The notes under the pieces were generated by a model. It made no database searches. It had not been told where the DNA came from and saw only the letters and a list, made by a program, of their open reading frames with translations. Below, piece by piece: positions 5,224 through 44,878 of a stretch of 64,000 nucleotides of DNA. The position numbers and the translations under genes are program-made. The stretch spans positions 124,001 to 188,000 of the forward strand of contig JAJHQZ010000001.1 in the NCBI GenBank assembly GCA_020833055.1, read 5' to 3'. Within the stretch, counting starts at the first letter, position 1, and each line of letters opens with the position of its first letter. Source of the stretch: Candidatus Korarchaeum sp. GTDB taxonomy: Archaea; Korarchaeota; Korarchaeia; Korarchaeales; Korarchaeaceae.

Positions 5224-5355
5224 ATGGGGCGAGCGGCCATAGCGGCCAGGGACACACCCGGACCCATTCCGAACCCGGAAGTTAAGCCTGGCCGCGTTCC
5301 GTGGAGTACTGAGCTCCTCAAGGGCTCGGGAAACACGGAAGCTGCTAAGCCCCAC
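5224..5355 (+). rRNA. rrf: 5S ribosomal RNA
   Basis: The conserved 5S core CCGAAC-CGGAAGTTAAGC is present in plus-strand sense, preceded by GCGGCCATAGCGGC and followed by loop E/helix IV sequence. The ends pair as helix I: TGGGGC at 5225-5230 with GCCCCA at 5349-5354. Length is about 131 nt, a little long for archaeal 5S. The gene is not next to any 16S or 23S gene in the window, as is common in TACK archaea. A TATA box sits 26 bp upstream. The 3' end overlaps the last codons of thiI on the opposite strand by about ten bases. A minus-strand frame spanning the gene (5088-5336) is spurious. Confidence 0.95.
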
Positions 5356-33566: not shown

Positions 33567-33656
33567 ATCGTAGGCTATGCCTTATACAATCCTCTCGAGG
33601 ATCTCCGAGGGAGTAAATAACCAAGAACCTCGAACTATATTCAAAGAGGTGAGGAA

Positions 33657-33722
33657 GGGGGTCAGGACTCGGCAAATACTTCATCGCTGGAGCTCAGGCG
33701 GTTGATCCTCCCTCATTCCCCC
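33657..33722 (-). ncRNA. box C/D sRNA with two rRNA guides
   Basis: Minus strand, about 66 nt. Terminal stem GGGGG (33722-33718) with CCCCC (33661-33657). Boxes in order: C ATGAGGG (33716-33710), D' CTGA (33697-33694), C' GCGATGA (one mismatch, about 33687-33681), D CTGA (33665-33662). The D' guide, AGGATCAACCG, pairs with CGGTTGATCCT of the archaeal 16S 5' end and predicts 2'-O-methylation of the first U of GGUUGAUCC. The D guide, ATTTGCCGAGTC, pairs with GACUCGGCAAAU of 23S rRNA and predicts methylation of the last C of GACUC. Spacing D'-C' is 6 nt. A TATA-like ATTTTTTAG near 33745 is about 26 bp upstream. Confidence 0.88.
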
Positions 33723-33758
33723 AATTAACTTCCCAATACTAAAAAATAAAGGTTAGGC

Positions 33759-34571
33759 TTACCTCCTCTTGACCTCACCTATCTTCGAAGACAATACTTC
33801 AGCTGGTTTATGGGGCTTGAAGCCCAATTTACTTCTCATGATGAGTTTCTTGAGGAGTTGTATCCCTTGAGCCGGATCGACGTACTTAGGACAGACATCG
33901 GAGCAAGAGGTGGCAAAGTGACAACGCCAGCATCCGTGATCACTATCTACTACAGCTATCCTCTCCTCTAAACCGTCATCCCTAGTGTCGATGATGTACC
34001 TATATGCTTGCGCTAGAGCGTGGGGGCCCAAGTACTCATGGTCAGTCGAGACAGTTGGACAAGCGGAATAACAAGCTCCGCATAACAGACAGTCAGTGAA
34101 CTGGTAATACCTCGCGTATTCTTCTATCGTCTGCTTATAGTCTCCAGTTGGATTCTCTAATTCTTCTGCATCCTTCCTTATTATCCAAGGCTTGACCGCC
34201 CTATGCTTATCGAAGAAGGATTTGAAATCGCAAGCCAGGTCCCTGATTATCGGGAAGTTATCGAGAGGTCTCAGCTCAATCTTACCATCCTTCGCTACTT
34301 CCAAGACCCTAGTCCTGCAGATGAGCATCTGCCTCCCATTAACCATCATAGCGCATGAACCACATAAAGCCTGCCCACAGGAATATCTGAACGCTAGAGA
34401 GGGATCTATCTCCTCCTTGATCCTCAGGAGCGCATCAAGTATCGTAGTTCCTCTGCTCACCTCAATCTCATATTCCTTCCATCCTGGCGCGAAGTCTCTC
34501 CTCGGATTATACTTGTAAACCCTAATCTTAACAGTCCCAACGGGTTTCCAGAGGTCCATGGACGACTCCAT
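33759..34571 (-). CDS. sdhB: succinate dehydrogenase/fumarate reductase iron-sulfur subunit
   Basis: About 270 residues. An N-terminal 2Fe-2S ferredoxin domain (FRYSCGQALCGSCAMMVNG with a later Cys in LICRTRV) precedes the C-terminal domain with CLLCGACYSACP and CWRCHFATSCSDVCP for the 4Fe-4S and 3Fe-4S clusters. It transfers electrons between the SdhA flavin and membrane quinone. The ATG at 34571 has GAGGGG eight bases upstream; an in-frame GTG at 34580 is possible. Last gene of the sdhACDB operon; the C/D sRNA lies 37 bp downstream. Confidence 0.95.
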   Translation of the reverse strand: MESSMDLWKPVGTVKIRVYKYNPRRDFAPGWKEYEIEVSRGTTILDALLRIKEEIDPSLAFRYSCGQALCGSCAMMVNGRQMLICRTRVLEVAKDGKIELRPLDNFPIIRDLACDFKSFFDKHRAVKPWIIRKDAEELENPTGDYKQTIEEYARYYQFTDCLLCGACYSACPTVSTDHEYLGPHALAQAYRYIIDTRDDGLEERIAVVDSDHGCWRCHFATSCSDVCPKYVDPAQGIQLLKKLIMRSKLGFKPHKPAEVLSSKIGEVKRR

Positions 34572-34583
34572 CACACTCACCCC

Positions 34584-44762: not shown

Positions 44763-44878
44763 TCGGGGCGGGGGGACTCGAACCCCCGGCCTGCCGGTTT
44801 CTGTGGGAGCTGCCGCTGACGGGGCGTCAACAGACGCCCACTACAGCCGGCCGCTCTACCAGGCTGAGCTACGCCCCG
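44763..44878 (-). tRNA. tRNA-Tyr (GTA) with 42-nt intron
   Basis: Acceptor CGGGGCG pairs with CGCCCCG; first base C opposite G72 is the archaeal/eukaryal tRNA-Tyr identity pair. D arm GCTC/GAGC, anticodon stem GCCGG/CCGGC, loop CTGTAG^A (anticodon GTA), T arm GGGGG-TTCGAGT-CCCCC, discriminator A; CCA is not encoded. Exon 1 is 44878-44841, the intron 44840-44799, exon 2 44798-44763. The splice sites sit in a canonical bulge-helix-bulge: central helix CTGT/ACAG, bulges AG^T and AA^A, at position 37/38. Mature length 74 nt. Confidence 0.96.

Follow-up and report, generated by a model that had tools for sequence, protein, structure and literature searches.

Organization of the locus

A dual-guide box C/D sRNA gene is predicted on the minus strand of the 64,000-nucleotide stretch of DNA analyzed here (the window), just downstream of sdhB and transcribed in the same direction (Table 1). 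Read from 33722 to 33657, the RNA would have the order GGGGG A AUGAGGG AGGAUCAACCGC CUGA GCUCCAGCG AUGAAGU AUUUGCCGAGUC CUGA CCCCC, in which boxes C, D', C' and D follow one another and the C/D kink-turn is complete with its bulge, tandem G-A pairs and 4b-4n pair. With four boxes, a five-pair terminal stem and two rRNA guides located, the locus has the architecture that a sequence-only reading of this DNA had assigned to 33657-33722. Box C (AUGAGGG) deviates from the consensus RUGAUGA at U5 and A7. The first sequence to catch the eye as a box C', GCGAUGA, was set aside for AUGAAGU, which is favored both by the 12-nt spacing and by the relatives. A covariance model matched the locus at 33655-33724 with an E-value of 1.2e-17, the locus itself being a member of the training set. 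Folding of the isolated sRNA was no better than that of shuffled sequences (z = -0.32), as is expected for a C/D sRNA.

The same reading had given the gene a TATA element of its own and had placed it in the 3' flank of sdhB, and both assignments were borne out. A TATA-like element (TTTATTTTTTA) precedes the gene, and 17 of 20 relatives have an equivalent element that starts 31 to 35 nt before box C, despite diverged flanks. The sdhB gene, whose name comes from the sequence-only reading and from cysteine motifs recognized by eye, adjoins the sRNA in most relatives. The genome also carries genes for the core proteins of such particles: fibrillarin and Nop5 (Nop-domain) genes are adjacent on contig C1, and two genes of the L7Ae family are present.

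Table 1. Features at the predicted sRNA locus (window coordinates)
Feature	Position	Strand	Remarks
sdhB (succinate dehydrogenase/fumarate reductase iron-sulphur protein)	33759..34580	-	upstream neighbour, same direction
TATA-like element TTTATTTTTTA	33740..33750	-	~34 nt upstream of box C
Predicted box C/D sRNA gene, ~66 nt	33657..33722	-	limits as set by the sequence-only reading
Terminal stem, 5' arm GGGGG	33718..33722	-	double changes in 4/5 stem pairs among relatives
Bulge A and box C AUGAGGG (kink-turn)	33710..33717	-	
D' guide AGGAUCAACCGC, 12 nt	33698..33709	-	11 Watson-Crick pairs, own 16S nt 5-15
Box D' CUGA	33694..33697	-	
Box C' AUGAAGU	33678..33684	-	standard 12-nt register
D guide AUUUGCCGAGUC, 12 nt	33666..33677	-	11 Watson-Crick pairs, own 23S
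Box D CUGA	33662..33665	-	
Terminal stem, 3' arm CCCCC	33657..33661	-	pairs with GGGGG 33722-33718

Complementarity to the organism's own rRNAs

One contig of the genome (1.39 Mb, 99.5% complete) carries its only 16S gene and its only 23S gene; a 5S rRNA gene lies on the same contig, far from both (window 5229-5350, plus strand). When the guides were aligned to these 16S and 23S genes, complementarity was found in both, with 11 pairs each. The D' guide forms 11 Watson-Crick pairs with nucleotides 5 to 15 of the 16S rRNA (CGGUUGAUCCU), exactly the contiguous pairing to the 16S 5' end that had been claimed. The D guide forms 11 Watson-Crick pairs with 23S ACUCGGCAAAU. Here the proposed target does exist in the organism's own 23S rRNA, but the 12 pairs counted in the sequence-only reading are reduced to 11, because the genome has AACUC instead of the assumed GACUC: in the actual target stretch (AACUCGGCAAAU) the first G of that motif is an A, which stands opposite a C, and the twelfth pair is absent.

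Both guides measure ∼12 nt between boxes and have a Watson-Crick pair with the organism's own rRNA at position 5. By the N+5 rule for the position of box C/D methylation (PMC4644070), the predicted sites are 16S Um8 for the D' guide and 23S Cm1810 for the D guide, in agreement with the 16S U and the 23S C singled out previously. The first corresponds to E. coli U13 (numbered by manual alignment anchored on GAUC) and belongs to the closing U-G pair, the last of helix 1; the second corresponds to E. coli 1672, according to an alignment to E. coli 23S. The sequence-only reading had also linked methylation with pre-16S end formation, a speculative coupling that the present results do not support.

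Guide matches and chance expectation

One guide match alone is no better than chance in this genome: in 389 kb, C- and D-like boxes combined with at least nine pairs gave 19 matches to the real rRNA and 28 to reversed rRNA. Judged on a single guide, the locus could therefore be a chance resemblance or a non-transcribed relic. However, a four-box element with two 11-pair guides occurs only this once within the same 389 kb, and the chance expectation for two such guides is on the order of 1e-6 to 1e-5 per element. Both guides jointly, together with conservation, exceed chance, and it is the conservation that settles it. Given also the compensatory changes described below and the conserved TATA-like element, we regard chance resemblance or a relic as hardly credible.

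Motif scans of contig C1 and of ∼800 kb of the sister genome G010 yielded no further C/D element with two strong rRNA guides, with a scan too weak to separate scarcity from divergence: the expression used recovers 11 of 14 known Thermococcales-like sRNAs, and match numbers were low and mixed. A second C/D sRNA family does occur in the genus (L204, about 502-566, corresponding to C5:76901-76965 on the organism's own contig; also L199, L201 and L202), and for its D guide CGAUCUUGAGUN no match longer than 7 pairs was found in the organism's own 16S or 23S rRNA. An Rfam scan of the window at the gathering threshold returned no C/D families; the best local C/D match, to sR19, scored 9 bits, well below the threshold of 45, and the gathering thresholds of sR14 and sR11 were not reached. 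Rfam did find a tRNA gene that had been missed by ARAGORN (window 44763-44878, minus strand) and that, at a length of 116 nt, probably contains an intron.

Conservation and covariation

A DNA search gave matches in 16 of 61 genomes, the organism's own included, one of the 16 being a weak match outside the phylum. With the addition of pattern searches, relatives of the sRNA were found in at least 20 of the 29 genomes of the phylum. The covariance model matched 23 of these 29 genomes at E ≤ 0.001, a count that includes the 20 training-set members and some unverified weak matches and that is based on rough E-values. In the 20-row alignment, both-sided changes were observed in four of the five terminal stem pairs as well as in the 3b-3n pair of the kink-turn. 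The number of double-change cells in this alignment was 17, compared with a shuffled mean of 4.6 and with none of 500 shuffles reaching as high, although the shuffle test overstates the significance because the alignment rows are related.

The guides could be followed in the same manner. The 16S guide was found in 17 genomes, and in 16 of them it is accompanied by the 23S guide. Within the family, the seven genomes in which the 23S site was read share an identical target, GAACUCGGCAAAUU, which is thus uninformative on co-change between guide and target. A co-change could be seen in G025, a genome from another family of the same class, whose own altered 23S sequence (AAATCGGCAAAC) is matched by its D guide (GTTTGCCGATTA); comparing 23S AAAUCGGCAAAC with guide GUUUGCCGAUUA, two changes in the target are met by two changes in the guide, and 11 pairs are kept. 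Evolutionary support was hence seen for both the structure (stem and 3b-3n pair) and the guide-target pairing.

An unusual kink-turn pair

The tandem G-A core and the G-C pair at 4b-4n, which are shared with other archaeal box C/D kink-turns along with the L7Ae-type motif, are invariant among the members. The 3b-3n pair is more variable. In this genome, the G at 33712 in box C lies opposite the U of box D, forming a G-U pair where most relatives have G-C or A-U; across the 20 members the pair is G-C in 10, A-U in 5, G-U in 3 (this genome included) and U-U in 2, and it is thus a Watson-Crick pair in 15 of 20. Comparing position 5 of box C with position 2 of box D, A is always found with U, and G mostly with C (Fisher p = 0.0065, uncorrected for shared ancestry). 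In contrast, archaeal box C/D kink-turns have a strong preference for U-U at 3b-3n (PMC5689011).

Kink-turns with Watson-Crick or G-U pairs at 3b-3n fold poorly in metal ions alone (McPhee et al., PMC4382518), and we thus predict that assembly of this sRNA should depend on L7Ae. We rejected a Watson-Crick 3b-3n pair as a trait shared by every C/D sRNA of the lineage, since in the one other family that was seen, three members have U-U and the member from this genome has G-U. The combination AUGAGGA/CCGA is present also at Rfam sR45 in Thermococcales-like genomes, so that this kink-turn pairing is uncommon rather than new. The natural series of U-U, G-U, A-U and G-C within one orthologous RNA would allow a test of the rule that a Watson-Crick pair at this position blocks folding by ions, so that assembly requires L7Ae.

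Exchange of guides among relatives

Four relatives (G003, G014, G018 and G022) have kept the 23S guide and have a replaced D' guide, and no convincing rRNA target could be found for the replaced D' guides of these four. The 16S site is therefore not essential throughout the family. The reverse was observed in G017 (L195, near 1500-1564), which has kept the D' guide to the 16S 5' end, followed by an unusual D' box (CGGA), and has a different D guide. Since one guide can be swapped without the other, the two evolve separately, as has been described for archaeal sRNAs generally (PMC7994747, PMC4644070). Both G016 and G020 also contain, ∼1 kb upstream of the intact sRNA, a second, degenerate copy whose boxes are altered (L018 near 480-560 and the corresponding part of L019).

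It could be argued from the four replacements, from the retention of the D guide by a larger number of genomes and from the covariation of the D guide with 23S in G025 that only the 23S guide is functional and that the 16S guide is a passenger of the lineage. We consider this decidedly improbable, because most of the genus, as well as G016, G020 and G019, retains the same D' guide core despite divergence of the loop and flanks, because G017 shows the 16S guide retained while the D guide changed, and because Thermococcales-like genomes direct a guide to this 16S site with an identical offset.

Predicted function

We thus favor, with a probability of roughly 0.88, the reading of the locus as a dual-guide box C/D sRNA predicted to methylate 16S U8 and 23S C1810. 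The sequence itself shows the sRNA anatomy, guides complementary to the organism's own rRNAs, conservation, covariation of stem and kink-turn, one guide-target co-change, a conserved TATA-like element and the presence of genes for L7Ae, Nop5 and fibrillarin; from these we infer transcription of the sRNA, its assembly and methylation of both sites. The sRNA would bind L7Ae at the C/D kink-turn and at C'/D', and then Nop5 and fibrillarin. Each guide would pair with its rRNA target, and fibrillarin would place a 2'-O-methyl group on the nucleotide opposite the fifth guide position counted upstream from box D' (16S U8) or box D (23S C1810).

Observations that count against a methylation guide include the off-consensus box C, the replacement of the 16S guide in four relatives and the situation in Pyrococcus abyssi. 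The cryo-EM model of the P. abyssi 30S subunit (3.2 Å) contains ribose-methylated 16S nucleotides at Am373, Cm1376 and ac4Cm250, with none reported at the 5' end (PMC7005279), even though Thermococcales-like genomes do have a guide for this site. A map at 3.2 Å can miss 2'-O-methyls, and the 5'-end site of P. abyssi 16S may be unmethylated or may be methylated only transiently or partly.

The D' pairing covers nucleotides 5 to 8 of helix 1 and nucleotides 12 to 14 of the organism's own 16S rRNA, the latter of which (E. coli 17-19) we take to be the 5' strand of the central pseudoknot; the partner, GGA, was found in the same 16S rRNA. At 37°C the duplex with the D' guide is calculated at -19.0 kcal/mol, compared with -7.5 kcal/mol for the helix 1 hairpin. 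Because the 5' strands of both helix 1 and the central pseudoknot are covered, the proposed methylation guide could also affect the order of folding, as a secondary effect. An alternative would make folding the primary function: the D' arm, similar to U3 box A, would act as a chaperone that keeps these two strands apart until assembly is ready, with methylation being minor or serving as a release signal. The absence of a reported 2'-O-methyl at this site in P. abyssi would fit such a role, as would the precedent of eukaryotic U3 snoRNA, a box C/D RNA whose box A pairing with small-subunit rRNA and the central pseudoknot, where the korarchaeal D' guide also pairs, are mutually exclusive (PMC4340053). 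Nevertheless, every guide hides the structure with which it pairs, so that overlap with the pseudoknot by itself proves nothing, and the sRNA keeps the N+5 geometry and canonical dimensions, while four relatives have lost the 16S guide. Furthermore, U3 is not known to guide methylation at this place, and it possesses extra 5' elements as well as further contacts that were not seen here. Chaperoning as the primary function therefore appears unlikely. The analogy with U3 can be extended to a methylating counterpart of box A that would gate the 16S central pseudoknot and, via the 23S guide in the same particle, link maturation of the small and large subunits; we view this extension as quite unlikely.

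Comparison with known systems

Returning to the dual methylation guide, RNAs of its kind are already known from other archaea, as are guides to both of its sites. In one other family among the genomes searched, marked as Thermococcales-like by its Rfam matches, sR14 carries the 16S guide, and sR11 carries the 23S guide. sR14 (RF01145) has the same D' guide, GGAUCAACCG, with the same one-nucleotide offset from D', and its predicted 16S target is therefore the same; sR14 differs from the korarchaeal sRNA in its D guide, in having the canonical U-U kink-turn pair in most cases and in its genomic place. Similarly, the 23S site is shared with sR11 (RF01150), whose guide to it, UUUGCCGAGU, occupies the D' position in an sRNA of its own, whereas in the korarchaeal RNA this site is targeted by the D guide, beside the 16S guide. 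Among the genomes searched, only the korarchaeal family appears to combine both guides in one RNA. Korarchaeota, an under-studied phylum, thereby gain a well-supported sRNA family, in which two rRNA sites that are targeted in distant archaea by two RNAs are targeted by one, with clear swapping of guides.
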